Assembly (NCBI GenBank): GCA_029204225.1 | Contig: MU831863.1 | Location: 36,009-100,008 of the forward strand | Length of the DNA: 64,000 bases | Source of the DNA: Diphasiastrum complanatum | Taxonomy: Eukaryota; Streptophyta; Lycopodiopsida; Lycopodiales; Lycopodiaceae | Reading direction: 5' to 3' | Part shown: piece after piece, positions 11,594 through 63,658 of the stretch | Layout: every line of letters begins with the position of its first letter | Numbering within the stretch: the first letter of the stretch is position 1 | Notes under the pieces: generated by a model | Told to the model about the DNA's origin: nothing | The model's input: the letters and a program-made list of their open reading frames with translations, nothing else | Databases searched by the model: none | Program-made: the position numbers and the translations under genes

Positions 11594-11599
11594 TCCTTT

Positions 11600-12502
<903 letters not shown>

Positions 12503-16819: not shown

Positions 16820-16930
16820 TTATTCAAGCTTGCTATTTTCAGGAATCCCCGGCAATGACAAAATTGCTTTTTGCATGACAGACGAACCAGAGAAAACCAT
16901 CATTTGGAACTGTGAAAAGAACTCCTGAAG
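16820..16930 (-). CDS. Exon 20: C-terminus and stop
   Basis: The acceptor is TTTGCCTGCAG|CTTCAGG. It encodes [20 protein letters not shown], then a short tail ending ...ENSKLE and TAA at 16820-16822. The 'F.GxSMLxK' family ending is recognisable as FSGSSVMQK. The 3' UTR should lie below 16820; I did not see a clear poly(A) signal. Confidence 0.9.
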   Translation of the reverse strand, partial: LQEFFSQFQMMVFSGSSVMQKAILSLPGIPENSKLE

Positions 16931-19900
16931 CTGCAGGCAAAGTTTGACAGAAATGACAGAATTCACATTGATCAGATTCTCAGTAATACAAGTTTTCTGC
17001 CGCATTATATACCTTTCAGAAACTCTGGTCAGAATATTTTGTTACCATATAGTAAATACCTTCCAGAAACTCTATTCAGAATATTTTGATACTTTACAAG
17101 TTTACATCATCTAAATTGATCTAGTCAACTACAACAAAAATATGTGAGTCAACCTGCTTGTGAGGCATTTGGCTAAATCCAAACTTTCTTAACCATATGC
17201 CTTCAGCTCCTTCAGCAGCAGGAACTAAAATTTGCCGAATTTGAAGAATGCCTAATAACCTCTCCACACACTGCAACAAGGCTTCACAGCAGCCCTGTAG
17301 AGGCATTCATTGCTTTTATCAATAACAAATCATGTTTTATTCTCCTTGGTAAATATTTTGCAGAACTAGCTGTGTTCTTATGCATGGAGCCAAAAAAAGC
17401 CCCTGAGGAAGTGTTGGTTGGGGTGGGGGTAGCATTTTGTATGCATGCCAAAAAGACAGCTGAATCACTATGTTGATACAAAAGGATATCCTAGTAAAAA
17501 ACCCAATTTAGGGAAATGCTAAAACAAATTTTTTATATCAGAAAAAGAGCTTATTGAAAATATAACTTGATATGAACAATCTCAGCATTGATGTAAAGCT
17601 TTACATAACATAAAGAACTAAAGCATGCTACTGGGTTCTGAATATGCTTCTCAGTGCTCAGAATGAGGACCATGCCTTCTCCATAATGGTAAACTTACCT
17701 GTAGCCGCTTCTGGAGCAACATGTTATCATTCCTTAACTATGATGCTCTCACAATCTACTGTGACCTAATCCCCTCTTGCACTTTATGCCATGTGACACC
17801 TGCTTTGACATTTCATTTGCATACTAGCCATACTCATGCCACATTGCCCTACCTCACCAAGAACACAGATGATTACTTCGCAGTAATGAATGTGCCTTCA
17901 TAGCTGCTCAAAGAGAAAGACTTCTGTATCTGTTCTGCAGAGTTCTTCTGAGTTTCTACTAAGCCAACCCTTGGATGATGTGGTGGAATAATGAATTGAC
18001 CTCCAAGTAAGTGGCTTCTCTAATTCTTGATTGCTTGCAGCCTAATGATCAATGTTATGGACTTTCTCCATAGACATAACTGGAGACCGTTCGATTTGTG
18101 ACAGTTTTTTACTAGTATTCACTGTTTTAGGTTGAAATTCGTCGAATCTACGGTATGTAAATGATCTTAAGGATTGTACTTGCTGTTTTTCAGTCATTAA
18201 GATAGGTTCTAATGATTGCATGCTTGTTCTTTGGTCAAGATCGGGATCGAGACACTACTTCGGTAGCTAGAATTAACTATAAGAATCAATATAGAGCTTA
18301 ATCAAAACCTTCGGCACTTGCATGTAGGTGAATTACAGTAGGTAGGGTTTGATTGCACTTGCATGCAGATCTGATCCATCAGAATTTACAGAAAAAGTCA
18401 AAAATTGGTCAAAAAGCAAAGTTTTTTTTCACTATTTTGGAAGATTTTTTCAATGTCTTTGCATAAAACTTTGCATGCACGTTCTCAGTAGTGTATTGAA
18501 GCTGTCCAGAGGCTGTGACAAAGTTTGGTAGGCAATGGTCACTGTTAGGCGTCTCAAAACATCAAATATTAGTGTATTTTTTATGGTTTTTGAGCATGAA
18601 TAACTTGCTATACTAAACCTGAAACCTTTGAACTTGTTCACAGTATGAAAAATAGGTTGTACTGCCACTGACTCACGCCCTCATGCACCCACCTTGGTGG
18701 TGGGCGGCTTAGGCACCGTCTATCCAAAGATTAGCTTGATGGCACCCTCCATAGAGACAATTTTCAGTGGATCTAAGCCTATGGATGCTTGCTGGACCTG
18801 ATAGAAGCTTCTACTGCTATCTGATGAATCTTAGCAGAGTGCTTGTAACCTTTGATTGATTGCATGTAAGTCTGAGGCATGAGTTTTGAGAAACCATGCT
18901 TGAAAAAGTGCATCCTGAATTCAGTTTGTTACAGCTCGCACGTGTGAAGCCAAGTGACACGGTGACATCGCAGTCATCTTGCTAACCTACTTTCCCTTTG
19001 TACTGTGCTTTACAGCGACCAATTTGATGCTCTCTAGCCAAAGTTTTGATTGTCGGAAGTTTTGGTAGTTTTTAGTTCAAATTTGGCAAAAATTTTGAAA
19101 TGTTCTCATTGCATGTTCTAAATCACGTTGCATGTCTGGGAACATGATACTGTGGTGTTACAGTAGTTTGATTAGTTAAATTTCATGGATGGATACAGTT
19201 TGAGTGCAGCTAAAAAGTGATTTTTGAGTTAATTAGGCAGTTTACGTAAAAAAGTCGATTTTCTCAAATCACTGCATGTTGAATTTGATGCACACCGAAT
19301 GGTTCGAAATCAGTTTGAAATGGAATGGTGATAGTGAAACTGAAATTTCGATAGTCTAATCCAAAAACAGCAAATCAATCGATTTTTTGGGCTGGAACAA
19401 CAACACTAGAGATTCTATAACACCTCAAGAAGCTGTCTCCACCTTTTCTCTCACCAACATCCTCAAGAAACAAGCAAAAATTGAAGATTTCTCCACTTTC
19501 TCTCTCTAGAACAAGGCTCTGATACCAGACTAAGAGCTAGAGCCTATCAAGAGATCATGGACCATGTAAATCCTAAACCCTGCTTTGATGTAATATGTAT
19601 TATCATTCATGTTCTAAATTGAAGTTCCAAGTTTGAAGTGGCAAGGGCCAAGTTCTAACTTCTATGTCTTAACTTTTATGTTTTAAGAATGGGTGGAATA
19701 GTTATATTTATTGACCATTTATGTAAACTATAAATGCAATTGACAATTGCCATCTAAGTCTACTTTTCTTCATCAAATTTGATTCATCACTTAGGTTCTT
19801 AGAAGTTAGTACGTAGCTTACTAGTAACTACTTTCAAGTTTCAAATTTCTTATCCGATGATTGATTTGTTGAAGCATAATAAAATGTGCAATCATAATTT

Positions 19901-23364: not shown

Positions 23365-23429
<65 letters not shown>

Positions 23430-36104: not shown

Positions 36105-36142
<38 letters not shown>

Positions 36143-36480: not shown

Positions 36481-36531
<51 letters not shown>

Positions 36532-39500: not shown

Positions 39501-39966
39501 CCTCTTCTTTTGTGTAGTGTAGGGCGTTGGTTCACCTTACATTGATCTTTCCACAAATATTATCAAGTATGCAAAACGAGGTTACATCTTTCTCACTGGT
39601 GGCTTTAATGCCAGGATAACTGCACGACAGTCCAATGACTTCTGTTCTAGATGCGGCCTAGGGGTTAACATTGGGAAGACCAAGGTGATGGTCTTCAACA
39701 CTTCCAAGCAATGTTGAGTCGAATCGCGGTTCAATGAAAGAACCGCGATTCAAAAGTCCGGTTGCCCGATTCAAACCGTTTTTTTGAGGTTCGAACCATT
39801 TTCAAAAAAAAACACGTCACCTGCTAGCCCGAACATCCGTCCGCGCGCATTCCCAAAATAAAGATCCGACTCCCGAGAGACCAAATGAGAGAGAGAGAGA
39901 GAGAGTTTGAAAGTTCAAATAGGGAGGGAGGGAGGTGTAGTTATGTGGGTGTGGGTGTGGGTGTGG

Positions 39967-40006
<40 letters not shown>

Positions 40007-52000: not shown

Positions 52001-54507
52001 GGGTCACCGTTGACCGTCTGACCAAAATGTCTCATTTTATTCCGACCAAAACAACCGTTAGAGCTCCAGAGTTAGCAAGGTTGTTTGTAGACGGGCTATT
52101 TAAATTGTACGGTCTACCTTCCGGCATAGTCAACGACCGGGACAGTAAGTTTAATGGAAATTTTTGGAGGGCAGTATTCCATCATCTCCATACTAAACTT
52201 AATATGAGTACCACTGACCATTCACAGACGGACGGTCAAACAGAAAGGGTAAATCAGGTGCTGGAGGATATGCTTCGTGCATACGTCAGCAAGAAGCAGA
52301 CTAATTGGGAGGAGTATCTCTCGATATTAGAGTTTGCTTACAACAGTACCAAACATTCAGCTACGGGATAAAGCCCATTTATGCTGATGTACGGTTTTCA
52401 GCCACGCTCACCCACAGCTGTAGGGTTTAAATAAGACAAAGTTGAAGCAGCCAGGAACTTTTTAGAGGACCTAAACCAAATGATAGAACATGCTAAGCGT
52501 AGCATTAGGCAGTCCCAGGATCGAGCCAGGCATTATGCAGATCCACACAGACGGGATATGCAGTTCTCCACTGGTGAGAAAGTCTACTTGAGAGTCCCAG
52601 TTGACTCTAAAACCCTCAAATCAGGAGTGTGTGCTAAGTTGTCTCCAAGAGAGAGACGCAGACTCGTCATACTCTATATCGAGAATATCTGGTCAAGTGG
52701 AATGATCAGCCTGTTGAGAATGCCACTTGGGAAAGAGGCAGTGTCCTTCGCAAGATTTTTCCAGACTTTGTCTTCGAGGACCAAGACGGTTCTTAAGGGG
52801 GAGGGAGTGTTACGAGCTCGTGACCAGTGCCGAACCCTAGAGAACACAGATAGGTCAGATACCACAGTCAGGGTCGTGTCCAGCGTACACGACCAACAAG
52901 GCAAGACAGTGTGAGTAGTGTGCCCCAGCATGGTCCATAGCTATGGCGAGCCTAACACAGTCTAGAGACCCTGTCAGCAGGACAGGGCCCCAAGTTGATC
53001 GATACGGAGGTGTTTTCTTGCAAGTGTTGACATTGAATTGTAGGCAACCAAATCAAGCGCAGTTTGGCTCTAGACCACCTTTCTTCATGCCCACGGTGAT
53101 TCCTATGGGGTCAGTTCTAACCATTACCGCACAGCTTGCGAGATTTGAACACCACAATCCAAATGCTTGTTTTTTTTTGCCATTTTCAAAAAATGGCTTC
53201 TGGGCAACCGATTCAGGTGGTGTCTGAGCCTAGAATGCATTTCCACATGCCCGCACAGACTCCTGTGACCTCCGTTCTGCCCATCTACGTCCGTAGCACA
53301 AATTTCAATTTTGTTGCCCTAATTCCATGTTTTTTAGGGTTTAAGCTTAGAGCATCGTGCAAGCATCCGCCAATAGCGTGGTTTAGGCCTACACTGGACT
53401 CATAGACGCCTGCAAGGACTCCCATGCTAGCGTCAGTCGCCCGTTTTCGCTCACACTGGAATTATTCTATCCCTCGCCCTGTCTCGTGTGTTTTTTGGCA
53501 GTTGCTATGATCTTGCTAGAATCAACATGACGCGTGCTCGGATGTGTTCAGCTCTGTTTTAGGCTGGTAATGTTTTTCAATGCAATGTGTTTTCTTCTAC
53601 TAAACGGTTGTTTGCTTGTTTTTGTTCGCAGGTTTGATCTCGTGTGGACACGATGCCGTTGCAGGGCCGAGGCCTTTGGGGTGAGGTTGAGCTTACTGAG
53701 GGGGATGTGGCTACACACCATGGCTCGGGAGTCTGTAGATGGAGATGCTTGCATTGTGGTGGTCTCTTCACAGGATCACTTACCAGGGTTAGGGCTCACT
53801 TACTAAGGGTCAGAGGGCCGGGTGGGCGGGCATTGGGCATATCTGATTACCCCAGGATTTTCGATGAGGAGAGACAGAGGTTGTCTATTACGTACGGGCA
53901 TGGTGCTGCATCACAGGTTTCTGGACAGGGACAGGGACAGGGACAGGGACAGAGACAGGGTGTTGCATCACAGGTTTCTGGACAGGGACAGGGACAGAGA
54001 TAGGGACAGGGGGCAGAAGCAACTGCAGGTTCACAGGCAGGGGTCACAGGTATGCAAGCACGGCCTACTACGGGTGTAGAGCCTAGTACAGCACGTTCTT
54101 GGCAGGGTTTAGGTGCAGTGCATGGTCCAGGCAGTGCCACTCCAGTTCCACCCGTAGCAGCAGGGCTTACTTCAGAGGGGAGAGCGTCACATGAGCAGGT
54201 TGGATCAGCAGCAGGCAGGGGGAGGATCCAGAGCCAGAGCACGCAGCAGAGAGACAGAGCACGCGGCAGAGCCAGGGCCACACCACGGCGTATGGCTCCC
54301 TCCAGTTCTGATTCATCTACAGACCCTTGGGATCTGCAGTCAGGCACAGATTCAGATGATGGTTCCTACCATGACTCTGACGAGCCTTAGTTGTGTAGTT
54401 TTCATTATGTTTAGGGAACATCATTGTACTCCATTTTGGTGCTATGTGGCCCGATATTTATATTATGATGATCCTATTCACAGCAGTGTAACGATTCAGT
54501 ACTGTTC

Positions 54508-54552
<45 letters not shown>

Positions 54553-57500
54553 GGTTGAAAAACGATTCCATATGGTTGAAAAATGTTTCAGTACGGTTCA
54601 GGACGATGCAGTATGGTGATTGGTTCAGAACACTTAGCAAGGTTTTTGTTTAGCATGATTCAGCATTTTTGTTTAGTTTGTTGGATCTGAGAGAGATAAC
54701 GAGAGAGAGAGAGAGAGAGAGACAGAGGGAGTTAAATTTTGGGGCATCATGTTTTTTTATTAATGCACCTGGGAGTTAAAGCGTAAACCTAGGAGTTAAT
54801 GCACCTAAACTAGACCATCCTGCACCCGAAACGTTCGGCAAAATACACAGTAATTATGCTCTTAATTAGAGCTTTCACCTGATACCCATATTGCACAAAA
54901 AAAAAACAAAAAAAAAAAAAATTAAAAAAAACGTTTCTGGAAAAAATTTCTATATTTCCGAAATGCGTTTCTGAACGCGTTTCAGAAACGCAGTGCAACT
55001 ATGGTGCAGGTATACATCAATAGCAGTTGATTAAAATAAGGGAATTTAGAAGCAAGAGGTAGAGACAAATTGTACAACCTATTCATCCATATCATAAATG
55101 ACTCATAACTATAATGTAGAAAGGTCAGATGCATCTATATATGATAAAGAAGTCTTTGAAAGACTTATGGGGAAAACATGAAAAACTTGTCGCGCATTTG
55201 CATAATACTATCAAATAAATAGGTCTGCTGTGCTTAAGCATATGAAGGTCAGTTTGCAATTTATGAAAAAATGATAAACACTTGCCACATTAAATGGCAT
55301 TAACAAGCAGATAGGATTCTAAGTCATTAGTTAGTGATGGAGCACATACTGCAGGTATCTTTGTAGCTGAGGAAGGTGGCAGCAACAACATGGTCCTTAC
55401 AATGGGAATAGAGAATGAAGTGAACCAATTTTGCATTTCCCACAAGTCTCATCCATACCCGTTCCAATAGTAATGTAGTTCTTTGAATCTTTGTTTTGTT
55501 TCATGAATGCTTATCAAACTATGAAAGCAAAAAATTTAGGAGATCTTGACCCACGACAAGGTTGAAAGGGAAGCCAGTTGTGTTCAGAGAGAAAGAGAAA
55601 TGGCAAAGAGATTCTATTGGGGGTAGGAAGTCGATGAGCGACATGGGCTAATAGATAGTTGATGCAAGCGAAAAAAGCATCCAAAGAGGAGGAGGGGGTA
55701 ACTAGAGGGAGCAAAGCCAGGAAGATGTGGTACAAAGAAACAGAACCTACCAAAGATCCATGAAATTTGAAAATAGGCCATGGTAAGTAAGACGGAGACG
55801 CCGAAGAGGCGTTGGGTACAAGAGAAAAAAGAAAGACCAATAGCATTTTGATGTTTTGAATGGAATAATTCAATAAATAGTAAATACAGCACACATCGTA
55901 ACATCCCCCAAATGCATAAAAAGTATATGTAAATATGAAAAGGAGCTCTTATTTCCTAAACGTTAAACAATAAGTAACTTTGATTAGGAAGAAGCATGTG
56001 CAAAACATTTGAAAGCGTGTCACAACAAAGAAAACTTTATATCTACGAACCTCACACACACTTTAATTGGTTACGAAACTGGCAAGGTTTGAAGCTAGAA
56101 ATTGGAATTCGCACAACTACAAAAACATGGACAAAAGCAAAACCATGGGAATTTTGAGTAGATATTGAATGATATGCAAAATTTGAAAATCATATGGAGC
56201 AATATTGCACATACTTCAACGACCATGCTTGACAACCACTCACTCATGATTGCTATCAAGCATTGCCACATGATACAACTCTTCCTCATAAAGGGGGAAA
56301 CTTGAAGACAGTAGGCAAACTAGTTACCTAGATGATATGCCCTTGAGCAACTGCCACAATGTACAAGCTCTCCATCAAGACCACACTTTGAGCAATGATC
56401 ATGACCAGTTACAGATGTCAATGGACCATCGTCACATTCTAAGCTTTTCACATTACCCCTCTGGACAGCAACATCATGTAAGGACATTCCATCCAACAAA
56501 TGGATGCAATTGTACCTGATGAAGAAATTTATATTTATTATGCATACTACATTCTTTGCATTTTCTTAACAGAATCAATACTTCCTCAAACAAAGGCATC
56601 AAACCTAGGCATGTATCTTATGAGAATTTCTTGATGCTCATTACTTTGAAAAACTATACTTAACGGATTACGACGAGCACCCCATCCGGCATGGACTTCA
56701 AACTGGGAACAGCTCACCTACAAAATTGCAACGCTTTGGCACAATAAGAAGACAAGCATCGGAGTCAAGAACTATGACATGACATAAAAAAGGTCAAGTT
56801 TTCTCAAAAACTGGCATCATAAAATGTCTGACAATTTTGTATACAAGCATATATATCTTTTTTCAGTTTTTATATGTAAAAGTCTTCAAAAAACTAAGAA
56901 GTTTCATAAAATGAAGGTTTTTTGAGGATAACTCAAAAGAGGTTTCTTTTTATGCTAAGCATTTTTTATGAGTCTCATATATGCATCTTCATGGGTCGTA
57001 GTATTTCTTTTCAAATTTTAGGAGAACTCTTATATCAGTATAAAGTTCTTGTTCTTTTTATGGACTTAAATCTCATAATAAGCCAAAAATTAGGTGATGT
57101 CATTTTCAAGTTTCAAAAAGATCTCATAATAGTGTTGGCCTCAAGCCATAATGGCAAGGGTTAAGTCCCCCCAGGCCTACAAAGGATGTTAAGGTGTATT
57201 CTGCCGCACGCGCAAGGGAGACACGTTGATAACGGAAGATGCGTGGCAGGGATGGCACATGACTTTTTTTAAGTGCCAAGTTTGTTGTAGCGAGTGTGCA
57301 CATGATTTTAATCAAAATGAGTAATCCATTCGATTACTTCCTATAGACCAAGTCCTAGACCTTTAAACTAAAGACGATTTGATTACGAACTTTCTAAGAT
57401 TAGAAAAATAGTTGATGTGTCTCACAATACACTGGGTTCCATGCTTATTCATTCTTGTAGAGGGTCGTAGCATAATGGACCAACTTTTTAGATGCTCGAT

Positions 57501-60500
57501 TTAAGATGGTAGTTAAAATGTATTCTCATCTCCCTCTTTGAGTGACAATATGAACAAAATCCTTCATAGTTATGCTTGCCTCAACAGTTGTGGTTTGTTG
57601 AGCAACTTGTCACCTTTTCTAGCAAATTCTACCATGTAGTGCACAATAGTCAATATCTGTCCTCGAACTTGATATCTAGAAAGTTCCCCACTTGTGTGTT
57701 TTACTTATTCAACGAATTATGTCTAAGCCACCCACGACATTTGTACTTCATAAAGAAATGGTTTACATTCAAAATGTTGGAGTCTCCTTCTGTCAGGGAC
57801 CATGTCAATAGCTTAGAATCACTTTTGGATCCGCTTGTAGTTGTAGGTTTGTCTATTCACAACAATGCAGTCATGACCCTACGATCAAGCCCTCTTGCAT
57901 CCTATGACCACTTGCTCATGCTACTCAATGCACAACCTACATCAACATTGGAAAGTGTCCTATCAATACTTTTTCAAGAAGAATTCAAAAGACAGTCTAA
58001 AGATATTCTCAGAAAAAAAAGCAATATTCCAATAATGCAAAACTTGGCTCTTAAGCTAGAGGCAATATCCAAATTTATGACGTCTAATCATCGTGAATGT
58101 GTTAAAGAACAACATGAAATTTAGTATCAAATGCATGTGAACGTTCTAGAGGGTCATAAAATGTTATATATATATCGATGTTATGGCTAGCATGACACTA
58201 AATATACCAAAAGTGACCTGCAATATGGTGACCACCCACAAAGTCTCAGATCATCAACTTCAATCATGCATCGCATGGACCATATGCTACGACATCCGTA
58301 ATCAATTTGTTAGTGCTCAGGAGTAGGTCAGGTCACATACTCAAATGTATGTCCACATTAGCTTTTATCCGTTTGTACAAAGACTTGCTCCCTTAAGTCT
58401 CTTTGCCCTATTTTGAAGGATGGCTATAGCTTCGGCAAGAGCTGGTGGCAAAGATTCAAATGCACTTTTGAGATTCGGGGTTGTGAACCATTGCTTTACT
58501 GGAAGTAACCTTTTTTTTTTTAAACAACATAGCGTGAGCCATCTTGCACCATTTGAAACTGACTGAACTCTAACAATGCCATAGAGCTGGCATCAAAAAA
58601 TCTCAACTATAAGAGCAAAAGAAAAATCAAGAAACGTCCAGTTTGACCTCATGTTCGTTGTTCAATACATCTAAAAAATCCAACCAACAAAGATATCCGG
58701 GAAAAACCTTCAGCTCTATGCATCCTTGCTAATAATTGTGAGAATCGATTCCTAAGTGCCCTTGGAGCTTCCATTCAAACTATCATAAAGAAAGTGAAGA
58801 ATAGCAACTCACTACTTGATTGCAGCAGCTACAGCAAATCCCAGAACCTGACTTGGTCCCAATTAGCAAACACTGTAGTATTCCAAAAAGTTAAGTCAAA
58901 ACAAACGGGACTGACTAAACACCACCTCTAATAACAGAGCACATGTTTTAATAACAAAAAATACCGTGCAGCACTTCACCTGGCCTTTGTCATAGTACCC
59001 CAATTTTGTACCGTCTGGCAATCCTCCAGGCAGGAAAAGAGCCTTATGCAAGCTTGGATCTCTGCAAAAAAGCATTTCACAAAATTTAAATCCTGCATTT
59101 TTCTTGTACGTCCTCATTTGTACAGCTGACTGGAGTCAAGCTCCAAACCTCCAAGGAAGTTCTCACCACAGATTCAAAAGACATGAACAATATCTTTGGT
59201 TTTAATCCAAATACCTGACAGTCAATACAATCCATGTCGCATGCTACAAAAGTTAAAATAGATTAATATCATTGGTGATCACAAAACAATCTCACTAATA
59301 TGGACGTTCTATTTGCCTCAATATGTTTCATATCTACTTAATTCTTTGTTGCAATCTCGAATAGCACAATGAAGTGCTGAATGCATCACTCTTTTGATTT
59401 TCTGATGACTTCAAAGAAGACTTAGAAACAGCAAAATAATATAACGAATATTACATGGCAAATGCTTTGTCTTCATAAAAAATTCTTAGAAAAGAGAGTT
59501 AAAGGCTAATAACAAGCAATTTATCCATAACAAAAAGAGCTTCATAGAACGAACATTTGATGCAATCTAGGCCAGCACAATCAATAGCTCAATAGATCAC
59601 TCTTTAATTTCCAGTCCTTCAAAGAAACCATGGAAACAGAAAAATACTGAAACAAATCTTACACAGTCAATACTTCTGCCTGCATGAGTGTCTTAGAAAA
59701 GAATATTCAAGCTAAGTCTAATAGCCATAAATGTCTTGTACAACAAACTTTCACCTGGGCTTCAGTTGAAGTCCAAATTCTGGATGATGGATAGACCTAC
59801 ACAAAAGTCATCAGAGGACAATCAAGATTAAGAAAATTTCAACACATAGGACACCTGCCAAAAACACATTTGTATCTCTAAGTTGGTAAGTACAGTGGTG
59901 AATATACTACCTTCTTTGCAAAAAATTTCTCTCCAAAAGCGGTTCACGAATGTCTATTTGCAAGCATTCTGGACAAAGCCATTTACCCTCTGGAAAGGTG
60001 TGCAAGCCCACACATTCTGTAGCACAAGAACATAGTAAACATCTCAATCATCAGCCAAAGAATCGCAGTAAGAAAATTACTTTGCAGGTGGTGATGCAAA
60101 CCTAAAACACCTTCATCAAAGTGCTCCATTTATGAACCTTCTCCCTAGAGCATAGTTGGTCATTCTTCGGTCAATAAGTTGGTTGATTAGGCACAATCCA
60201 ACATTAAATGTTGGGCATAGAATACTCAAAGAACTACCATATGAAACTCTCTTATGTTGAGTAGGACCTTGATGGTAAAACCTCGAGCAACTTTTGCTGA
60301 CACAGTGAAGAATCGCACCACCTTTATGGCATTTAACACAGACTTGTCTATCAGCACCCTCTTCAATGACCTTCTGAATCGTGTCCAGTACATCCCCAGT
60401 CTCTTTAACTTTTATACCTGCTTCTATAATTTCCTTTAGGGATTTTCCATTTCCCAGGAATATATAATCACTAGGATGTCTTGCATTACTACCCGCATGC

Positions 60501-63500
60501 TTTTCAAAACCTGAGACATTGAAGACCTTGGGGCATGAACAGACCCAGCAACCCAAACAAACTAAAAGTCACTTAACTGTCTCTGGCAAAGCCTGTTTTG
60601 ATAAAAATAGAAGACAAAAGAAATTGTATAATAAAGTTAAAGAGGCTAAAATTCATAAGATAATGTGAAAATGCAAAAGATTAAGAAAAACTCAAGAGTT
60701 GTACCCGTTGTCCTTTACAATCACTGCATTGGCAGAGAATACCACTGTCTTTAATCACTCCCAGACGCAATACCTGAAATATATACCGCAATGTAAGACA
60801 ATATTCACTTCGTAGTTCTGAACTAGCTTATCAAAGAAGTGGATTAGATTTAAAACAATCACAGTACACTCTCAAAAAATCACAGATTAAATAGATGAAA
60901 TAGCTAAAAAAACAGCAGGCTTGTCAATTTGAGACTCACCTACAACTTAAGTATCATTTTACCCCCTGCTTTACAACATAACTCTAATATTAAAAGTAAA
61001 CAGCTATGAATTGAAAAACCACTAACTCCTGCCCATAATACAACAAGATTTCACATATAAGTGCACGCACCTCTCCACGAGCCATATAACGAACGTACTT
61101 TCCTTCTAGCAACCCCGTTGCTAGCAAAGCTTTGGCAGATGTTGGAGGACCTTTTTTTTTCAATTTGAGCTAATATCATCAGCCTTTTTCTCTTCTCCTT
61201 GACTGACTCAGGTAGATTTTGACAAATGTCACCCGAAGTATCCTTTAAAGTTCCCAACGTTTTTTTAGTCTCAACTTGTTCTGATGTTCGGAACTCAGGC
61301 GATGAAGAATTTTCCGTCTCTGCAGGCGCCATTTCTTGGCCGTTGTAATTTTTTTCTGATACCAGGCATTTGGTACCTCTATATATGTCTTTGTTACCAT
61401 CAACTTTTTTTGGAAAGGGCCGCAAGTTCTCAGACTGCTGACTATTGTACGATATGTCTGAATCAATGGGTGTATCAGGATCATCAAATGAAGGCATGGC
61501 ATTACTCAAGTTGCAGCCTGAATCAGCATGCTCTTCCTGCAAGAATAATGGATCATCTCTCACATCCCCCTCACTTGTTTTGGATTTCATGTGCTTCTCA
61601 AATGTAAAGTTTGCTTTTCCCGCAGAGAAAGAGCGTAAAAAATTAAAGGATGGATCTGAAGTGCAGCTGAGAAAGATGATCGGTCGTCCTTTAGACTGCA
61701 CAAAGTGCTATTTCTAGGACCATCCTCGGCATCACTTTGACAGTTAGAGTTATCTGTGGGTGCATCCACAACACTGCACGAATCCTCTTGAACTGTCTCA
61801 TTGTTGAATCCCTGTTTCGCACAGTAAAATCTATCCGGCTTTGCATCAGACAAATCATTTTCTCCAGCCGGTGTTTTCTCCCCTGCCTTTGCATCAGATA
61901 AAACGTTTTCTTCAGCTGGTGCCTCATCTACTGACTGACAGTCCAAACCGTCTCCAGGCCTGTAAGAGTCCTCATTTGTGGAATGCAAAGTCACATCCTT
62001 TGGAAAATTCTCTGGTTCTTGCAAAATGACCATCTCAATGATCTCACCTTGCCCAGACAAACTGTCTTTATTGATATCAATCCCCGAGTTTCCAACATCC
62101 CTAACATTTAGCATGTCCTGTGCAGAGAAGAAAATTCAGATTACTATAAAGCAGCAAAACCTAAAACGCTTGAGCAAATGCGACATCTCTATTGCACAGT
62201 TGCATTTAAGAGTATAAAACAAAATATTCTCCAAAATCTGACACTTAACACTTAATCCCACCAGTAATTTACGTCACTGAAAGATAAAGCACTTGAATTG
62301 AAATTTGCATATCGATGGCTTACTTTTGAATCTACTTCAATGACGGTAGATTGCAGCGAGGATTTAGCCATTGTGAAAGGAAGCGGTGACCGTCTAGCCT
62401 GAATCTGCCAGAATTTAACTGGCTTTCAGTTGATATTTGAAAGAAATGTTTTATAAAGAAACTACTCTGGTTTCTGTCCAAGTCAAAAATCAAGAACAAA
62501 AGTTTGACGTTTGAAAGACATGCTTTATAAACAAAACTATTCTTAATTTCTCTCCAATTCTCGGTCAAAAATGAAAAACAAGGGTCTTCGTTTAATTGTA
62601 CGGTTGCAGCACTTAGGTGCATACCATTAACTTTTCCAAATTACAACTTGAATTCATGGATTTAAGTCCTTCACATTCTTCACATAAGGTGCCATTGGTT
62701 AAAGATAACTTCTGTGCAGACATGATACTCTCCAGCTCGCGTGGCTCGTTTGTCACATCTCCCTGAAACAACAGCAATTTTCTTGCTTCTGAAGTCTCAT
62801 CCGCAGATGGAGGTGATGTCATGATTGGCAACAATTTCTCACTTGCGACGTAGGATATTCCATTTGCAGATTGCATTGAGACCTCAGACTTTGGAGGATG
62901 TAATCTCTCAAGCAATTCAGCAGGTAACAATTCCCCTTTCTCAGAAGAGAAGCATGGTACGCCACCATTTGCTGTTATCTCTACCGGTTCGGTTGCAGTC
63001 CCATCAACCTGGCATCCCTTCATAAAACAGGGCTTTACAGATCGAGCTGCTTCATCTGAGTCCCTTGCTAAAGGTGAGTCCAATCTCGAATTTGAATCTA
63101 CGCTCTTGACCAAGGGATGCTGTAAATGCTTCAGCGATCCATTACAACATATTGTTAAGATCTGAGAACATTGGTAAGGATGAACATCGGCATGCAATAC
63201 AGTTTTCAGAAGAAGCATGTGGCAACTTTATAGACATAGACTCTCCCTCTTCTGTAACTACTTGATTCGAACAATCCATCAAATAACTTCCTGAAGCCTT
63301 CCCTTCAGAATTATCAATAGCTTTGATTGATCCAAGGACCGGATGGGGAGATTGTAGCCTAGCATTTTCATCAAATGTCCGTTGGAACTGCAGCAAGTCA
63401 ATCCCAAGCATCCTCTGCTTCTTTGATGAGGATCCTGCAGCAGGTGTTTCGGCTTCAGCATAGGAGGCTCTGTGCTTCCTTGGAACTTCTACACAAAACT

Positions 63501-63658
63501 TCCTTCAATAAATATGGAATGCAGTGGACTTCTTTGAGCCCGCACCCGACGCTTAAACCGGAGCCATATCCACCAGCTGGTTTATTTCCATCCTCAACCT
63601 TTTCTGTTTCATCCACTGTTTGAGAAGGATCCATCCTCAGATCACAGCTACAAGCCAT
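16820..63658 (-). CDS. IDM1/ROS4-like PHD-finger acetyltransferase gene, 20 exons over 46.8 kb
   Basis: Minus-strand gene assembled from exons at 63658-62625, 62398-62324, 62117-61071, 60773-60705, 60526-60268, 60016-59911, 59796-59755, 59061-58980, 58872-58813, 56717-56665, 56515-56328, 38214-38031, 32434-32377, 32193-32137, 27247-26993, 26892-26828, 26736-26680, 26544-26451, 17294-17154 and 16930-16820. Exons 4-20 all have GT...AG borders, their phases match at every junction, and they stay open for 626 codons to a TAA. Domain order: acidic N-terminus, TDBD-like module 1, PHD1, TDBD-like module 2, PHD2, extended PHD3, GNAT acetyltransferase. This order is that of the plant 'acyl-CoA N-acyltransferase with PHD-type zinc finger' family. 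Its member IDM1/ROS4 is a nuclear histone H3 acetyltransferase that promotes active DNA demethylation. The exact substrate here is inference. Frame changes in exons 1 and 3 leave the N-terminus unsettled. Confidence 0.88.
17154..17294 (-). CDS. Exon 19: GNAT C-terminal half
   Basis: The acceptor is GCCTCTACAG|GGCTGC and the donor CACAAGCAG|GTTGAC. Forty-seven codons include [31 protein letters not shown] and KFGFSQM, all family hallmarks ('LxLPAAEEAExxWxxKFGF'). Phase 0 both ends. It lies 9.2 kb from exon 18. Confidence 0.93.
17295..19540. other. Intron 18, proximal part, no gene seen
   Basis: AT-rich intronic sequence. The only motif is a minus-strand TGGTATCAGAGCC at 19515-19527 (copia PBS type) abutting the hAT remnant. 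No LTR can be recognised beside it. Confidence 0.45.
19942..20172 (+). pseudogene. hAT transposase, central fragment
   Basis: Reads [20 protein letters not shown], then [20 protein letters not shown]. This is the segment of hAT transposases in which an FW(x)3(A/R) motif follows the RNase H-like core. It is followed by frameshifted sequence. Confidence 0.65.
20806..21042 (+). pseudogene. hAT C-terminal dimerisation domain
   Basis: Contains [20 protein letters not shown] and [20 protein letters not shown], the hallmark of the hAT dimerisation region (A/SxxCERxWSxF...KRNRL...L..LVYVxxNL). The ORF ends at TGA 21040. The tail exon lies about 435 bp further on. Confidence 0.88.
21478..21742 (+). 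pseudogene. hAT acidic C-terminal tail exon
   Basis: After a CTGCGTGCAG|GACC acceptor the plus frame reads an Asp/Glu/Ser-rich stretch ([20 protein letters not shown]) and ends in [10 protein letters not shown] plus stop. One internal stop is present near 21529. Similar acid tails end other plant hAT proteins, and the ORF at 53644-54390 ends in the same style. Confidence 0.5.
22139..22507 (+). CDS. Hypothetical acidic ORF, 122 aa
   Basis: Starts [20 protein letters not shown]. Rich in Asp, Glu, Ser and Gly. The phrase QQGV recurs at about residue 56 ([10 protein letters not shown]), hinting at internal duplication. It sits between the hAT remnant and the CstF-77-like fragment. It has no domain and may be transposon-carried or chance. 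Confidence 0.25.
   Translation: MFRQQGVLEDADAMDESDGDAMDRLEVGTMAAGTTNSDAEVVSGPEGSVQLPEQQGVVESGGSYLPPICYMEPCGRTALMERASSREPTPVAWPSILPGTSQFSPESLYVGPSCRSSGFEFS
22828..23037 (-). pseudogene. CstF-77-like (HAT-repeat) gene fragment
   Basis: Minus strand reads [40 protein letters not shown] and [14 protein letters not shown] before a stop. This is the N-terminal HAT-repeat region of cleavage stimulation factor subunit 77 (suppressor of forked). A complete protein is several hundred residues long; only about 65 are here, ending abruptly. No other CstF exon is recognisable nearby. It looks like a captured fragment or degraded retrocopy inside intron 18. A second unrecognised minus ORF lies at 22555-22763. 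Confidence 0.75.
23369..23511 (+). repeat. (GT)n/(GA)n microsatellites
   Basis: (GT)n at 23369-23407 passes into (GA)n to 23428, with a second (GA)n at 23487-23511. Confidence 0.95.
23690..25190 (-). mobile_element. LINE relic (minus), RT to 3' zinc-knuckle region
   Basis: Read from high to low: [20 protein letters not shown] (about 25140), an RT palm with SLSPTLFGL and IDELERVIE around 24750, [20 protein letters not shown] (24600), and near the 3' end [20 protein letters not shown] with [18 protein letters not shown] (23690-23830). The last is the Cys/His end domain of plant non-LTR RTs. Many stops and shifts. It matches the plus-strand LINE at 33900-36840. One short piece is inverted (see findings). 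Confidence 0.8.
25191..26450. other. Intron 18, distal part
   Basis: Contains a 40-bp perfect palindrome (25464-25503) and otherwise noncoding sequence up to exon 18. Short ORFs show no domain. Confidence 0.45.
25464..25503. repeat. Perfect palindrome, 19-bp arms, 2-nt loop
   Basis: TACATGTCACTAATGTACT, then AG, then its exact reverse complement. It would form a stable hairpin in single strands. Confidence 0.95.
26451..26544 (-). CDS. Exon 18: GNAT core strand and loop
   Basis: The acceptor is TCAACAG|TGAGG and the donor AGTCTG|GTATGC. It encodes [20 protein letters not shown], then [11 protein letters not shown]. The 'VxSA.(I/L)R(I/V)xGxxxAE(L/M)PLVAT' strand is well kept. The acetyl-CoA loop follows across a 9.2-kb intron. 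Confidence 0.92.
26680..26736 (-). CDS. Exon 17: GNAT domain
   Basis: The acceptor is AACTGCAG|CCATACC and the donor TTCAA|GTGAGT. Encodes [18 protein letters not shown], matching the 'G.E..GMYCxVL' strand of the family. Phases 2 and 2. Confidence 0.9.
26828..26892 (-). CDS. Exon 16: GNAT domain
   Basis: The acceptor is ATTACAG|GAATG and the donor TTTACAG|GTTATT. It encodes [20 protein letters not shown], the conserved 'ECFDPIxDxxSGxDLIPxMVY' block at the start of the acetyltransferase core. Confidence 0.93.
26993..27247 (-). CDS. Exon 15: end of PHD3 and start of GNAT domain
   Basis: The acceptor is TTTACAG|GAGCTG and the donor TTCTCT|GTACGT. It starts [13 protein letters not shown], which closes PHD3. 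Then comes [20 protein letters not shown], the conserved lead-in to the acetyltransferase domain ('L..NGPExxPxS'). 85 codons, phase 0 both ends. Confidence 0.93.
27248..29028. other. Intron 14, proximal part
   Basis: Noncoding. GCTGCCCGAGTGAATAT repeats at 28508, 28555 and 28584. AAACAGTATA and TATACTGTTT face each other at about 28799-28828 (hairpin). No gene seen. Confidence 0.5.
29029..29619. mobile_element. Non-autonomous TIR element with GGTACC arrays, about 590 bp
   Basis: The left end TAGTTGCACTGCGTTTCTG faces a right end whose reverse complement is TAGTTGCACAGAAACGCGTT, followed again by TCTG. Interior: GCGTTTC-type words, poly(T), a conserved GGGCAATATGGGTATCA block (about 29131-29147), TTGCCGAATGTTTCGGGTAC (29174-29193), then a left and a right array of GGTACC words (29286-29340, 29397-29467) around an A/T-rich centre. 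No ORF. hAT-like in style. A target duplication is not certain. Confidence 0.6.
29620..30766. other. Intron 14, middle part
   Basis: Noncoding AT-rich sequence with an (AAT)n stretch near 30485. No gene seen. Confidence 0.5.
30767..31228 (-). pseudogene. Penelope-like reverse transcriptase fragment
   Basis: The 153-residue minus ORF contains [20 protein letters not shown] (a Y-I-D-D catalytic box), then CKFLDVSIS (the FLDV(x)I motif following the palm), [14 protein letters not shown] and [15 protein letters not shown]. The order Y(V/I)DD - FLD - (I)YxKR - YG...SQ..R.SR is that of Penelope-like elements and related algal/plant RTs, not of copia, gypsy or LINE. The N-terminal RT motifs and the GIY-YIG region are not seen, so it is a remnant. 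Confidence 0.6.
31229..32136. other. Intron 14, distal part
   Basis: Noncoding, with a diverged local duplication (ATAGAAATTTTGA...CAAAAAGTGTACAAA at about 31708 and 31788). A plus ORF at 31403-31696 has no domain. Confidence 0.45.
32137..32193 (-). CDS. Exon 14: PHD3, HxxC half
   Basis: The acceptor is TATGGCAG|TGTGAG and the donor CTAAAG|GTGGTG. Encodes [19 protein letters not shown], nearly invariant across the family. Phase 0 both ends. Only 183 nt separate it from exon 13. Confidence 0.93.
32377..32434 (-). CDS. Exon 13: PHD3, middle
   Basis: The acceptor is TTCAATGCAG|GTGTGG and the donor GACCAG|GTAACA. Encodes [19 protein letters not shown], the family motif 'C..HDFxxxxFxxRTVxxCDQ'. 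The position aligned to the usual H of HDF is a glycine (CGDF), a small departure. Confidence 0.92.
32435..33840. other. Intron 12, distal part, no gene seen
   Basis: Noncoding sequence between exon 13 and the LINE. Short ORFs without domains. Confidence 0.5.
33841..35420 (+). mobile_element. LINE relic (plus), reverse transcriptase
   Basis: Plus strand in several frames: [104 protein letters not shown] (catalytic F/Y-x-D-D box) and SSYTYL. This is a non-LTR RT with repeated frameshifts, so inactive. The 3' Cys/His domain of the same family appears at 36533-36840 after an inserted copia remnant. Confidence 0.85.
35440..35530. repeat. GATTCGAA-word cluster
   Basis: CGATTCGAATCGAGCGATTC and several more GATTCGAA/GGATCGAATC words, the same words as in the ends of the hAT element at 39709-42313. 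Probably the remains of one end of a related element. Confidence 0.5.
35610..35755 (-). pseudogene. Copia RT C-terminal fragment next to a PBS
   Basis: Minus strand gives [16 protein letters not shown] then [18 protein letters not shown], the end of copia RT before RNase H. It starts within 20 nt of the PBS at 35771-35782, so everything from leader through most of pol is deleted. Confidence 0.75.
35771..35782 (-). other. Copia primer-binding site (tRNA-iMet type)
   Basis: TGGTATCAGAGC on the minus strand, directly after an LTR ending TTCTTCACA. Confidence 0.8.
35783..36435 (-). repeat. Copia LTR (653 bp)
   Basis: Minus strand TGTGAGAAATTTC ... TTCTTCACA. Includes a (GA)n tract at 36107-36140 and a TGTGTGT run. 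The same family as 7551-8202, judged by ends and length. Confidence 0.6.
36469..36527 (+). repeat. (AC)n(CT)n microsatellite
   Basis: AC tract to 36482 then CT to about 36527, at the junction with the LINE 3' segment. Confidence 0.95.
36528..36840 (+). pseudogene. LINE 3' Cys/His domain
   Basis: Plus strand reads [40 protein letters not shown], a CxxC...HxxxxC zinc-binding end region of plant LINE pol. It matches 23690-23830 (minus) and probably belongs to the LINE interrupted at 35420. Confidence 0.8.
36841..38030. other. Intron 12, proximal part
   Basis: A plus ORF at 37193-37480 has no recognised domain. Otherwise noncoding up to exon 12. Confidence 0.45.
38031..38214 (-). CDS. Exon 12: second half of PHD2 and start of PHD3
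   Basis: The acceptor is TTAGTACAG|GTTGTACGG and the donor TTTGCAA|GTGAGT. In phase with exon 11 it gives [18 protein letters not shown], completing PHD2. A basic linker follows, then [18 protein letters not shown], the opening of the extended third finger. The phase match after an 18.1-kb gap of transposons is strong evidence that both halves belong to one gene. Confidence 0.92.
38588..39120 (+). pseudogene. LINE ORF1-like protein
   Basis: Reads [20 protein letters not shown], a Lys/Glu-rich helical stretch, then past a TGA near 38963 continues [20 protein letters not shown] and [12 protein letters not shown], the usual end of plant LINE ORF1 just before ORF2. Charged and probably coiled. 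Confidence 0.55.
39219..39479 (+). pseudogene. LINE AP-endonuclease fragment
   Basis: Reads [20 protein letters not shown], where the 'xxxxETH/ETW' glutamate is the metal-binding residue of apurinic-type endonucleases, then [13 protein letters not shown]. Ends at a stop, and later endonuclease motifs survive only as traces (GGFNA-like at about 39600). Confidence 0.65.
39941..40003 (+). repeat. (GT)n tract in hAT 5' region
   Basis: GT-rich from 39941, uninterrupted (GT)n from 39968 to 40003. Preceded by (GA)n at 39889-39905. Confidence 0.95.
40296..40490 (+). pseudogene. hAT transposase BED zinc-finger exon
   Basis: ATG at 40296: [20 protein letters not shown], then [16 protein letters not shown] and ALHVM. 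W-x-H, CxxC and His spacing are those of a BED DNA-binding finger. The second catalytic-side exons follow after an intron of about 300 bp. Confidence 0.75.
40793..41152 (+). pseudogene. hAT transposase N-terminal core exon
   Basis: Reads [60 protein letters not shown]: the 'F...GIPFNxxxxxxFxxMxxxxxxxGxxYxxPSxxxLRxxLL' segment of hAT proteins, ahead of the first catalytic Asp. The stop at 41150 is probably intron read-through. Confidence 0.75.
41454..41850 (+). pseudogene. hAT transposase catalytic-region fragment
   Basis: [20 protein letters not shown], then [15 protein letters not shown]. Following a CAG acceptor at about 41790, [14 protein letters not shown] parallels the VVTDNAANCVxAG motif with the second catalytic Asp. 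The Asn after D is replaced by Lys. Downstream exons are deleted, so it is not a working transposase. Confidence 0.75.
43008..43230 (+). repeat. Dispersed TIR-like repeat, copy 2 (left end)
   Basis: Starts CATAGTTGCACTACGATTCT, GATTC/GCGATT words, poly(T), GGGCAATATGGGTATCATAT (about 43101), TTTGCCGAATGTTTCGGGTA (about 43157). It matches copy 1 (29029) and copy 3 (54773-55008, opposite strand). The right end is not recognised. Confidence 0.65.
43331..43412 (-). other. C-rich block, G-quadruplex-capable on minus strand
   Basis: Runs of 5-7 C separated by short spacers, plus one GGGGGG run at 43382-43387. No coding role. Confidence 0.6.
43710..43800. repeat. GGACGCG-word cluster
   Basis: GGACGCGGACGCGTC, then CTGGACGCGTCCGC, followed by a long A tract. 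The layout (GC-rich word cluster, then homopolymer) is that of the other TIR-like ends in this window, with a different word. Confidence 0.5.
43902..43913 (-). other. Copia primer-binding site (tRNA-iMet type)
   Basis: TGGTATCAGAGC on the minus strand. The 5' LTR should be at 43914 to about 44580 (minus start near TGACGTCAGCAGATAC). Its end beside the PBS is CATCAG rather than CA, so the border is uncertain. Confidence 0.55.
44767..45146 (+). repeat. Copia 5' LTR, 380 bp
   Basis: Starts TGTTAGAATTAC and ends GATTCTAACA, with an inverted terminal TGTTAGAAT/ATTCTAACA pair. It is followed at once by the PBS. A CTATAAGAG TATA-like box lies at about 44992. Confidence 0.9.
45147..45159 (+). other. 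Copia primer-binding site
   Basis: TGGTATCAGAGCC, complementary to the 3' end of initiator-Met tRNA. Confidence 0.92.
45195..45620 (+). repeat. Tandem repeats in copia leader
   Basis: Units GGTGGAGGTCGCATCT recur near 45211-45270. Then about five units of the type GAGGGCGGTAGAACCTGAGC (roughly 33-36 bp each) lie at 45390-45600. They are noncoding and between PBS and gag. Confidence 0.85.
45735..47062 (+). pseudogene. Copia gag and protease
   Basis: The element's start is probably ATG 45735 ([20 protein letters not shown]), but a TGA follows at once and the frame shifts to the long ORF open from 45800. That ORF has a gag UBN2-type region (residues 1-165), a Lys-rich linker, zinc knuckle [14 protein letters not shown] (CX2CX4HX4C), protease site [14 protein letters not shown] and [18 protein letters not shown]. 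It ends in the gag-pre-integrase region ([11 protein letters not shown]) at TAA 47060; a second TAA follows near 47105. Confidence 0.9.
47108..49099 (+). pseudogene. Copia integrase and reverse transcriptase
   Basis: Same frame as gag. [10 protein letters not shown] closes the zinc-binding region. Integrase: [18 protein letters not shown] and GVAERKNRS supply the D, D and E. Linker domain [90 protein letters not shown] 1-nt insertion near 49066 ends the frame just before RNase H. About 650 residues are uninterrupted. Confidence 0.93.
49067..49679 (+). pseudogene. Copia RNase H with in-frame deletion
   Basis: [40 protein letters not shown], then TGA (49392-49394), SWSSKKQP fused directly to [16 protein letters not shown], and [20 protein letters not shown]. 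Roughly 35-45 residues between SWSSKKQP and CDNQS, including the SSTEAEY catalytic Glu, are missing without loss of frame. The element cannot have a working RNase H. Confidence 0.88.
49677..49738 (+). repeat. Copia 3' LTR, truncated to 62 bp
   Basis: TGTTAGAATTAATGGTTAAT and onward, 59 of 62 bases identical to the 5' LTR, ending ...TCTATTTT where gypsy coding sequence starts. Confidence 0.92.
49740..50021 (+). pseudogene. Gypsy protease C-terminal fragment
   Basis: [20 protein letters not shown] resembles the 'xDxVLGxDWL' end of the gypsy protease, followed by an HKGR linker. A frameshift near 49950 separates it from the RT lead-in. Confidence 0.7.
50030..50977 (+). pseudogene. Gypsy reverse transcriptase
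   Basis: [20 protein letters not shown] lead-in, TGA at 50159, then [45 protein letters not shown], the catalytic [11 protein letters not shown] and [12 protein letters not shown]. The core is open from 50255. A shift near 50925 breaks the RT-RNase H tether. Confidence 0.93.
51022..52371 (+). pseudogene. Gypsy RNase H and integrase
   Basis: RNase [36 protein letters not shown] (D, E, D). Spacer with an acidic stretch. Integrase: HHCC finger ending [12 protein letters not shown], then [20 protein letters not shown] and [10 protein letters not shown] (D, D, E). The finger's last His region reads [12 protein letters not shown] at 52369 interrupts before SPFMLMYG. Confidence 0.93.
52372..52795 (+). 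pseudogene. Gypsy integrase tail and chromodomain
   Basis: Reads [19 protein letters not shown], a stop, then [20 protein letters not shown] and GEKVYLRV (GPY-type region). After a shift near 52640, [20 protein letters not shown] and [15 protein letters not shown] form the chromodomain ('YLVKWxxxPxxxATWE'). Followed by stop and PPT. Confidence 0.85.
52808..53526 (+). repeat. Gypsy 3' LTR (right border tentative)
   Basis: After GGGGGAGGGAG comes TGTTACGAGCTCGTGACC. About 720 bp of noncoding sequence ends near ...GAATCAACA (53526). The right border is a guess because the 5' LTR is missing. Confidence 0.5.
53644..54390 (+). CDS. BED-type zinc-finger protein, hAT derivative without catalytic core
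   Basis: After a GTTCGCAG acceptor the frame reads [20 protein letters not shown] and VRAHLL (CxxC plus His, BED-finger style), then an array of Gly-Gln repeats encoded by GGGACA hexamers (about residues 99-119), a TAG at 54001 (from CAG by one C-to-T change), further Gln/Arg/Gly sequence and an acidic tail [20 protein letters not shown] ending SDEP. Finger and tail match hAT proteins; the RNase H-like core is absent. It may be a deletion derivative or a processed short isoform. Confidence 0.6.
54511..54722 (+). repeat. (GA)n microsatellites
   Basis: (GA)n at 54511-54549 and 54701-54722. Confidence 0.95.
54773..55008 (-). repeat. Dispersed TIR-like repeat, copy 3
   Basis: Minus strand starts CATAGTTGCACTGCGTTTCT (about 55008), then GCGTTTC words, poly(T), GTGCAATATGGGTATCAGGT, GCCGAACGTTTCGGGTGCAG and TTTAGGTGCATTAA. 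Closely similar to copies 1 and 2. Confidence 0.7.
55009..56327. other. Intron 11, proximal part, no gene seen
   Basis: Noncoding. Minus ORFs at 55514-55904 are hydrophobic and without domain. Confidence 0.5.
56328..56515 (-). CDS. Exon 11: first half of PHD2
   Basis: The acceptor is CATCAG|GTACAATTGC and the donor CATCTAG|GTAACT. It encodes [17 protein letters not shown], a linker, then [20 protein letters not shown]. That gives the first four cysteines and the histidine of PHD2. One nucleotide carries over an 18.1-kb intron to exon 12. Confidence 0.92.
56665..56717 (-). CDS. Exon 10: TDBD module 2, end
   Basis: The acceptor is TTTTGTAG|GTGAGC and the donor AATCC|GTTAAG. Encodes [18 protein letters not shown], the second copy of the conserved SxFExHAG motif. 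Two nucleotides carry into exon 11. Confidence 0.92.
56718..57575. other. Intron 9, part without gene
   Basis: AT-rich, no ORF with a domain. Confidence 0.5.
57576..58124 (+). pseudogene. Copia gag (UBN2-like) fragment
   Basis: From about 57700 the frame reads [60 protein letters not shown], the middle of a copia gag ('L..LKM....SVxEHxNxxxxLxxxLxxxG...LRSLPxSYxxL...LLxEExRR'). No zinc knuckle or pol follows. It lies in intron 9 of the PHD gene on the opposite strand. Confidence 0.75.
58125..58812. other. Intron 9, remaining part
   Basis: Noncoding from the gag fragment to exon 9. Confidence 0.5.
58813..58872 (-). CDS. Exon 9: TDBD module 2, middle
   Basis: The acceptor is TACTACAG|TGTTTG and the donor CAAGTA|GTGAGT (near consensus). 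Its twenty codons are [20 protein letters not shown]. The G-x-G-I-x-C-x-C-C pattern matches the family. Phase 0 at both ends. A 2.1-kb intron with a copia gag relic follows. Confidence 0.9.
58980..59061 (-). CDS. Exon 8: start of TDBD module 2
   Basis: The acceptor is TTTTTTGCAG|AGATCC and the donor GGCCAG|GTGAAG. It encodes [19 protein letters not shown] and then KLGYYDKGQ. The 'xLHKxxF...GLPDGTxxxYY' signature opens the second TDBD-like module in this family. The phase closes to 0 at its end. Confidence 0.9.
59330..59750. repeat. Diverged tandem duplication in intron 7
   Basis: Two units of about 205 bp. TCTTAGAAAAGA occurs at 59486 and 59691 and CACTCTTT...CTTCAAAGAA at about 59388 and 59596. 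Noncoding. Confidence 0.6.
59755..59796 (-). CDS. Exon 7 (42-nt microexon)
   Basis: The acceptor is TTGTGTAG|GTCTATC and the donor CCCAG|GTGAAAG. It encodes [13 protein letters not shown] and preserves the +2 phase between exons 6 and 8. It is short but in register on both sides. It is linker sequence before TDBD module 2. Confidence 0.8.
59911..60016 (-). CDS. Exon 6: second half of PHD1
   Basis: The acceptor is GTGCTACAG|AATGTG and the donor GCAAAGAAG|GTAG. Joined to exon 5 it gives [18 protein letters not shown]. Together the two exons supply the full C4HC3 ligand set of a PHD finger (CxxC, C..C, HxxC, CxxC). PHD fingers of this family read histone H3 tails. Two nucleotides carry into exon 7. 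Confidence 0.9.
60268..60526 (-). CDS. Exon 5: end of TDBD module 1 and first half of PHD1
   Basis: Starts after CCCCAAG with [20 protein letters not shown], then [15 protein letters not shown]. The conserved FExHAG and (I/Y)xLxNGxSL signatures close the first TDBD-like module. A linker leads to [13 protein letters not shown], the first zinc-binding half of PHD1. The donor follows ...FYHQ+G (CATCAAG|GTCC), a weak but legal GT. One nucleotide is carried into exon 6. Reading past the donor would add a long tail ending near 60116, which lacks the second half of the finger. Confidence 0.9.
60705..60773 (-). CDS. Exon 4: TDBD module 1, middle
   Basis: The acceptor is ATTTCAG|GTATTG and the donor CAACGG|GTACAAC. 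These 23 codons include [18 protein letters not shown], with the G-I-x-C-x-C-x2-C pattern typical of the module. Phase 0 on both sides. It joins exon 3 (...YMARGE) and exon 5 ([12 protein letters not shown]...). Confidence 0.9.
61071..62117 (-). CDS. Exon 3: acidic linker and start of TDBD module 1
   Basis: The acceptor is TCTCTGCACAG|GACATG and the donor GGAGAG|GTGCGTGC. The exon starts and ends in the same frame, but its middle (about 61640-61160) is open in a different one: a 1-nt loss near 61640 and a 1-nt gain in an A9 run at 61152-61160 cancel out. The C-terminal end, [20 protein letters not shown], is the conserved opening of the TDBD-like module ('LL.TGLLEG..VRY'). The rest is Ser/Glu/Lys-rich and low in complexity, with no visible fold. 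See the finding on the compensating frame changes. Confidence 0.75.
62324..62398 (-). CDS. Exon 2 (25 codons)
   Basis: The acceptor is ATTCAG|GCTAGACGG and the donor TCAAAA|GTAAGC. The 75-nt exon reads [19 protein letters not shown] and onward, phase 0 at both ends, so it can be included or skipped without a frame change. No domain is visible. It is supported by splice signals and phase only and could be an alternative or false exon. Confidence 0.55.
62625..63658 (-). CDS. Exon 1 (N-terminal region, frame unresolved)
   Basis: The start ATG at 63658 opens [20 protein letters not shown] and runs about 67 codons to a stop near 63455. A second frame (about 63490-63142) then carries a basic SSKKQR patch followed by an ordinary hydrophilic sequence. 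A third frame (63218-62625) continues for about 200 residues to ...CNLEKLM, with a good donor (ATG|GTATGC). So the frame changes twice within 1 kb. Either short introns are present (a TTTTGTGTAG acceptor-like site lies near 63488) or there are indels or assembly errors. The last frame enters exon 2 in phase 0, which supports it. The sequence is Ser/Glu-rich and without recognisable domains, as is usual for the N-terminus of this family. Confidence 0.6.

Follow-up and report, generated by a model that had tools for sequence, protein, structure and literature searches.

The IDM1_C protein family is named after Arabidopsis IDM1/ROS4, which combines PHD and GNAT domains and is further characterized by a methyl-DNA-binding (MBD) domain; its locus is presumably At3g14980. 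The two-TDBD class is, we take it, that of the At2g36720-type proteins of Arabidopsis. Arabidopsis IDM1 is described as recognising chromatin that is CG-methylated and poor in H3K4 and H3R2 methylation, and as acetylating H3K18 and H3K23, upstream of ROS1 (PMC4416881). Among papers naming At2g36720 or At2g27980, one has cryptic splicing in seeds as its topic (PMC13066497). Here we describe a member of this family from the lycophyte Diphasiastrum complanatum.

The window, the whole 64-kb stretch of DNA analysed, is the last 64 kb of the 100,008-bp contig C345 (C345:36009-100008). It carries one gene on the minus strand, running from an ATG at 63658 to a stop codon at 16820 over 46,839 bases, 4,043 of them exonic, with 20 exons and 19 introns, each intron bordered by GT-AG (Table 1). 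A preliminary description had proposed a single gene of 20 exons in which exons 4-20 have GT-AG borders, matching phases and 626 open codons, and this is borne out: the 17 exons (60773..16820, minus strand) have consistent phases and encode 626 codons plus a stop (1,962 nt minus 81 nt that are part of exon 3 gives 627 codons with the stop). The four junctions that it had singled out (56328/38214, 38031/32434, 32137/27247 and 26451/17294) likewise hold, with agreeing lengths for the four long introns named (18,113, 9,156, 5,596 and 4,889 bases). Compared with the window by tblastn, each of eight relatives (two each from mosses, ferns and angiosperms, one conifer, and P0017, whose identifier has the style of an algal one) matches 7-14 pieces, whose order is kept save for a few second matches between repeated domains. 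These ordered matches, together with exact identity to the public protein model O6H91_Y392000, argue that the exon chain is not a product of chance; a protein comparison of the joined exons, proposed beforehand as a check, returned an identical model and family relatives that match the exons in order. Three separate genes are ruled out, the exon clusters being joined by phases, relatives and model alike. The window holds an ordinary plant gene, very likely intact and vertically inherited, with a predicted product of 1,346 residues.

Table 1. Features of the gene and its surroundings, in window positions (C7 and C2, chromosomal sequences of the same assembly).
Feature	Position	Strand	Content
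Exon 1	62625..63658	-	ATG at 63658
Exon 2	62324..62404	-	identical to C7
Exon 3	61071..62117	-	
Exon 4	60705..60773	-	first TDBD
Exon 5	60268..60526	-	first TDBD and start of PHD1
Exon 6	59911..60016	-	remainder of PHD1, complete C4HC3
Exon 7	59755..59796	-	
Exon 8	58980..59061	-	precedes second TDBD
Exon 9	58813..58872	-	second TDBD
Exon 10	56665..56717	-	second TDBD
Exon 11	56328..56515	-	second TDBD (end) and PHD2 (start)
Intron 11	38215..56327	-	18,113 bases; plus-strand Copia and Gypsy inside
Copia (intron 11)	44767-49738	+	gag, integrase and RT domains
Gypsy (intron 11)	50162-52368	+	RT/RNase H/integrase stretch
Exon 12	38031..38214	-	remainder of PHD2 and start of PHD3; on both C7 and C2 contig ends
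Exon 13	32377..32434	-	PHD3
Exon 14	32137..32193	-	PHD3
Exon 15	26993..27247	-	end of PHD3 and linker
Exon 16	26828..26892	-	start of IDM1_C region
Exon 17	26680..26736	-	GNAT
Exon 18	26451..26544	-	GNAT strand with invariant Ala-Glu
Exon 19	17154..17294	-	end of acetyl-CoA loop and GNAT helix
Exon 20	16820..16930	-	stop codon
Overlap common to C7 and C2 contig ends	35096..52959		18 kb, 99.4% identity
Exon 1 indels versus C7	~63495, ~63345, ~63331, ~63203		extra, extra, missing, extra
Exon 3 indels versus C7	~61652, ~61160		missing, extra (A-run)
Exon substitutions, C345 versus C7/C2	63619, 17196, 38138		amino-acid changing, silent, C2 copy only

The introns had been described as mostly transposon. 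This stands in part for intron 11, where recognisable Copia and Gypsy account for about 7.2 of the 18.1 kb (a lower bound) and 62-base repeats, 95% alike, lie near the ends of the Copia copy. In the remaining long introns, small pieces or none were recognised: among the ORFs tested, intron 12 yielded a single reverse-transcriptase piece slightly below the Pfam cut-off and intron 18 one hAT piece, and the one ORF tested in intron 14 had no match. Intron 9 holds a Copia gag piece, ten further ORFs from introns and flanks yielded one hAT match above the cut-off and two matches below it, and introns 11, 12, 14 and 18 have short repeats in common. Downstream of the gene lie inverted Copia reverse-transcriptase copies about 88% alike (1006-1876 and 10810-11597); elsewhere in the window are an open frame of 219 codons with no Pfam match at E <= 0.01 (9312-9968, minus strand), a long simple repeat that appears in the ORF list as Leu-Ser or Arg-Glu runs (12217-12576) and, at the contig end, a direct repeat of about 92 bases, 87% alike (63775-63996).

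Pfam comparison of the protein gives two TDBD stretches (111.9 bits against a cut-off of 23.6), three PHD stretches, all of them complete fingers, and an IDM1_C domain (152.3 bits against a cut-off of 33), in the order TDBD-PHD-TDBD-PHD-PHD-GNAT. The protein is a member of the IDM1_C (TDBD/PHD/GNAT) family; we do not claim identity with IDM1 itself. PHD and GNAT are what it has in common with Arabidopsis IDM1/ROS4, for which orthology is not asserted, and the presence in the same genome of another IDM1_C gene, on C8 and 25% identical over the best local alignment, means that IDM1’s own counterpart may be a different gene. No MBD family was matched in Pfam at E <= 0.01 for the model O6H91_07G059100 or at E <= 1 for the C-terminal 653 residues, and Pfam may not recognise the MBD of IDM1 itself. 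The At2g36720-type proteins and the clubmoss protein probably fall in the same subfamily.

Aligned with 47 relatives chosen from 208 fetched, the C-terminal 653 residues keep 111 of 113 near-invariant residues, and in a ranking of the 48 rows by deviation 26 deviate less than the clubmoss protein and 11 more. The alignment indicates that the C-terminal half is under constraint, and this conservation suggests that the gene is live. A decaying pseudogene is ruled out by the C-terminal constraint and by the copy on C7, which is free of the indels described below. An AlphaFold2 model of O6H91_Y392000 (mean pLDDT 80.6, pTM 0.55) matches GCN5, NatD and PCAF chains in the PDB, placing it in the GNAT fold: Tetrahymena GCN5 ranks first (target TM 0.78), NatD takes ranks 2-7 (~0.6), and mostly GCN5 and PCAF follow (~0.8). 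Ala534, Glu535 and Gly549 of the same protein are invariant in 36 of 36 rows, Glu535 standing at what we take to be the position of the catalytic Glu of Gcn5. The acetyl-CoA loop reads R-S-L-G, with a second place that is Gly in 32 of the 36 rows and Arg in 3, and catalysis may therefore be weakened. By analogy with Arabidopsis IDM1, the PHD fingers would bind histone H3 tails, the TDBDs would bind partner proteins, and the GNAT domain would acetylate a nearby histone and so open chromatin; the product is thus a predicted chromatin reader-writer protein, with a putative IDM1-like anti-silencing role borrowed from Arabidopsis.

Both D. complanatum models of this gene among the matches listed are partial; the window carries all 20 exons on one contig. 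O6H91_Y392000 (P0001, 631 aa), the model on C345, matches residues 23-653 of the joined exons exactly, comprising exons 4-20 and the last 5 residues of exon 3; it starts at a Met in exon 3 and is without exons 1-2 and nearly all of exon 3. Automatic annotation had been expected to split the gene into at least three loci, but this model holds exons 4-20 as one, and further public models over exons 1-3 on C345 are possible. O6H91_07G059100 (P0002), on C7 (75,135,216 bases), covers exons 1-11; it differs from the window by one substitution in exon 1 and, in our reading, by a 5-residue insertion after exon 8, and ends inside exon 12, apparently via another acceptor (also our reading), without PHD3 and GNAT. 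No separate C-terminal fragment model of D. complanatum appeared among 42 matches of 186-593 aa, a range that left out the cluster of 5 to which O6H91_Y392000 itself belongs and within which a model of the C2 half of the gene (see below) may lie.

Relative to O6H91_07G059100, reading through exons 1 and 3 of the window takes six frame changes of one base each, four bases being extra and two missing, against one substitution in 720 codons, and direct DNA comparison with C7 yields the same six indels. The preliminary description, whose count began at exon 4, did not mention these breaks. All six lie within the last 2.9 kb of C345, mostly in homopolymers, and the C7 copy is without them; over C345:88968-100008, eight of nine single-base indels relative to C7 fall in the last 3 kb, within or next to one-base runs. 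C345 and C7 agree in every base of exons 2 and 4-12, and exons 13-20 show a single silent difference from C2; the whole set of 20 exons has 3 substitutions between C345 and C7/C2, besides the six indels. Because the indels crowd at the contig end, sit mostly in homopolymers and are absent from C7, we regard them as probable contig-end consensus errors, a reading that would explain both these indels and the differences in the outer 3 kb of C7 better than decay. If the N-terminal frameshifts were instead real, this allele would make just the shorter 631-aa protein from the exon 3 start, as annotated; O6H91_Y392000 does begin at that Met, but the ratio of indels to substitutions, the crowding at the contig end and the like crowding of differences in C7’s own outermost 3 kb make this unlikely.

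A genome search with O6H91_Y392000 finds pieces on C7, C2 and C345: the chromosomal copy has exons 1-12 on C7 and exons 12-20 on C2, in contigs that start at 32,235,202 and 8,990,853, respectively, each directly after 10,000 N. On C345, positions 16,162-88,967 match C2 (reversed) and 71,104 to the end matches C7. Within the overlap of the two contig ends, the differences private to one copy come to 31 substitutions and 39 indels for C7, 8 and 10 for C2, and 11 and 5 for C345; all those of C7 are in its outermost 3 kb, while those of C2 lie partly at its own end, with others near 35279-38138, including one within exon 12. Private substitutions in the central 12 kb of the overlap number 0 for C7, 1 for C2 and 9 for C345. 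Given this near-agreement, the C7 and C2 ends read as one haplotype, and we infer from the sequence differences that C345 is a second haplotype, spanning the cut; over 73 kb of alignments, 102 substitutions separate C345 from C2, along with 13 indels of one base and 12 longer ones, and C2 carries three stretches of 1.7-2.5 kb missing from C345.

Twenty 61-base samples at 9.9-kb steps, a spacing that could miss gaps shorter than 10 kb, found N on C2 at 9,089,800 and 9,178,900; twenty such samples found none on C7 up to 32,468,060. The N at 9,089,800 implies that the C2 contig with exons 12-20 is about 89-99 kb long, and with the 3' half on so short a contig between gaps, a misplaced contig is the simplest reading. 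The chromosomal split is thus probably an assembly mistake: the small contig with exons 12-20 would have been placed wrongly on C2, dividing the chromosomal copy between C7 and C2, whereas C345, as the other haplotype, would keep the gene in one piece, its frame breaks in exons 1 and 3 arising from contig-end consensus error. Against this reading, the C7 and C2 ends are not the same throughout the overlap, and the 25 kb left of the C7 gap contain no match of at least 500 bases to C345 that would close the gap. As a separate observation, at least nine PHD matches came up twice with equal scores, once on a long and once on a small contig (for example C6/C4470 and C2/C4403), and small contigs may therefore often be second haplotypes.

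The placement on C2 could be correct if there is a real rearrangement, in which a reciprocal C2/C7 translocation broke the gene on one chromosome set, duplicating the overlap at both ends and leaving C345 as the unbroken allele. Two haplotypes do seem to be present, to judge by the substitutions, indels and three extra C2 stretches that separate C345 from C2, and exons 1-12 and 12-20 do lie on two different chromosomes; yet each contig breaks off at an N gap precisely where the overlap ends, with no novel junction seen, the C7 and C2 ends are nearly alike in the central part of the overlap, and the C2 piece is short and flanked by gaps, so that we consider a translocation distinctly improbable. 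Were it true, the plant would be heterozygous, with a breakpoint in exon 12 and the 18-kb intron that carries the retrotransposons. That C345 is itself an assembler chimera, two unlinked loci joined via the intron 11 retrotransposons, is scarcely credible, for although the Copia and Gypsy stretches lie inside the overlap, so does exon 12, the joined product has the relatives’ full domain series with matching phases, and C345 has variants of its own within the overlap and on both sides of it. The preferred account, in which an intact gene with the function predicted above is preserved on a second haplotype that has errors at its contig end, and is divided on the chromosomes by a misplaced contig, is as a whole very likely, and flags a probable, specific join error in a lycophyte assembly.

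The domain order had been called that of IDM1/ROS4-like proteins; the order itself stands, but it is not typical of the family at large. Among 174 proteins with at least two TDBDs by a profile of our own making, drawn from the 208 fetched, a complete finger between the first two TDBDs is present in 13 and missing from 161, fingers being scored by a loose C4HC3 pattern and some of the 161 rows lacking a species name. The carriers are five liverwort, four moss, one Klebsormidium, two Diphasiastrum and one Populus protein; the last (P0163, Populus alba) is a four-TDBD model in which annotation may have merged two adjacent genes, and its finger is probably a different one. Apart from this fused model, no named fern or seed-plant row among the 174 has a complete finger there, and some members from Physcomitrium, Ceratodon and Sphagnum lack it as well. 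Among the closest counterparts are Marchantia MPTK1_2g04330 and other liverwort proteins (P0164-P0168), named ‘hypothetical’ or ‘unnamed’ protein, which show 49-51% identity across 98% of the 653 C-terminal residues and, as in the clubmoss, have a complete PHD1 between two TDBDs. By contrast, in 13 inter-TDBD stretches without a complete finger that we viewed, a CxxC..CxxC remnant stands in place of PHD1 in one conifer and eight named flowering-plant proteins of the At2g36720-type class, and in one unnamed protein; the fern stretch, one unnamed stretch and P0017 have no such remnant. For two relatives from the moss Ceratodon purpureus (P0173, P0174), VG and UG in the locus tags suggest copies on the sex chromosomes V and U. 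Among the best 120 of each protein listing, in which some rows are unnamed, no row is named Selaginella, Isoetes or hornwort, which is no test of absence; in a literature search on IDM1 and mosses, none of the matches listed contained the word IDM1, and we do not claim the loss of PHD1 as unpublished. Among the titles listed in literature searches, none was recognised as a genome paper on D. complanatum.

A tree of 48 rows is species-like and consistent with vertical inheritance, with Diphasiastrum sister to ferns and seed plants (support of 96 for ferns plus seed plants and 93 for vascular plants). Taken with the distribution of the finger, it places a loss on the line of ferns and seed plants, and the simplest history would be that of an old finger lost there, among a line of moss paralogues and in the rows presumed from their identifiers to be Spirogloea. 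A bryophyte-type extra PHD finger is still present in a lycophyte, which indicates the readers that an early land-plant acetyltransferase of the family carried.
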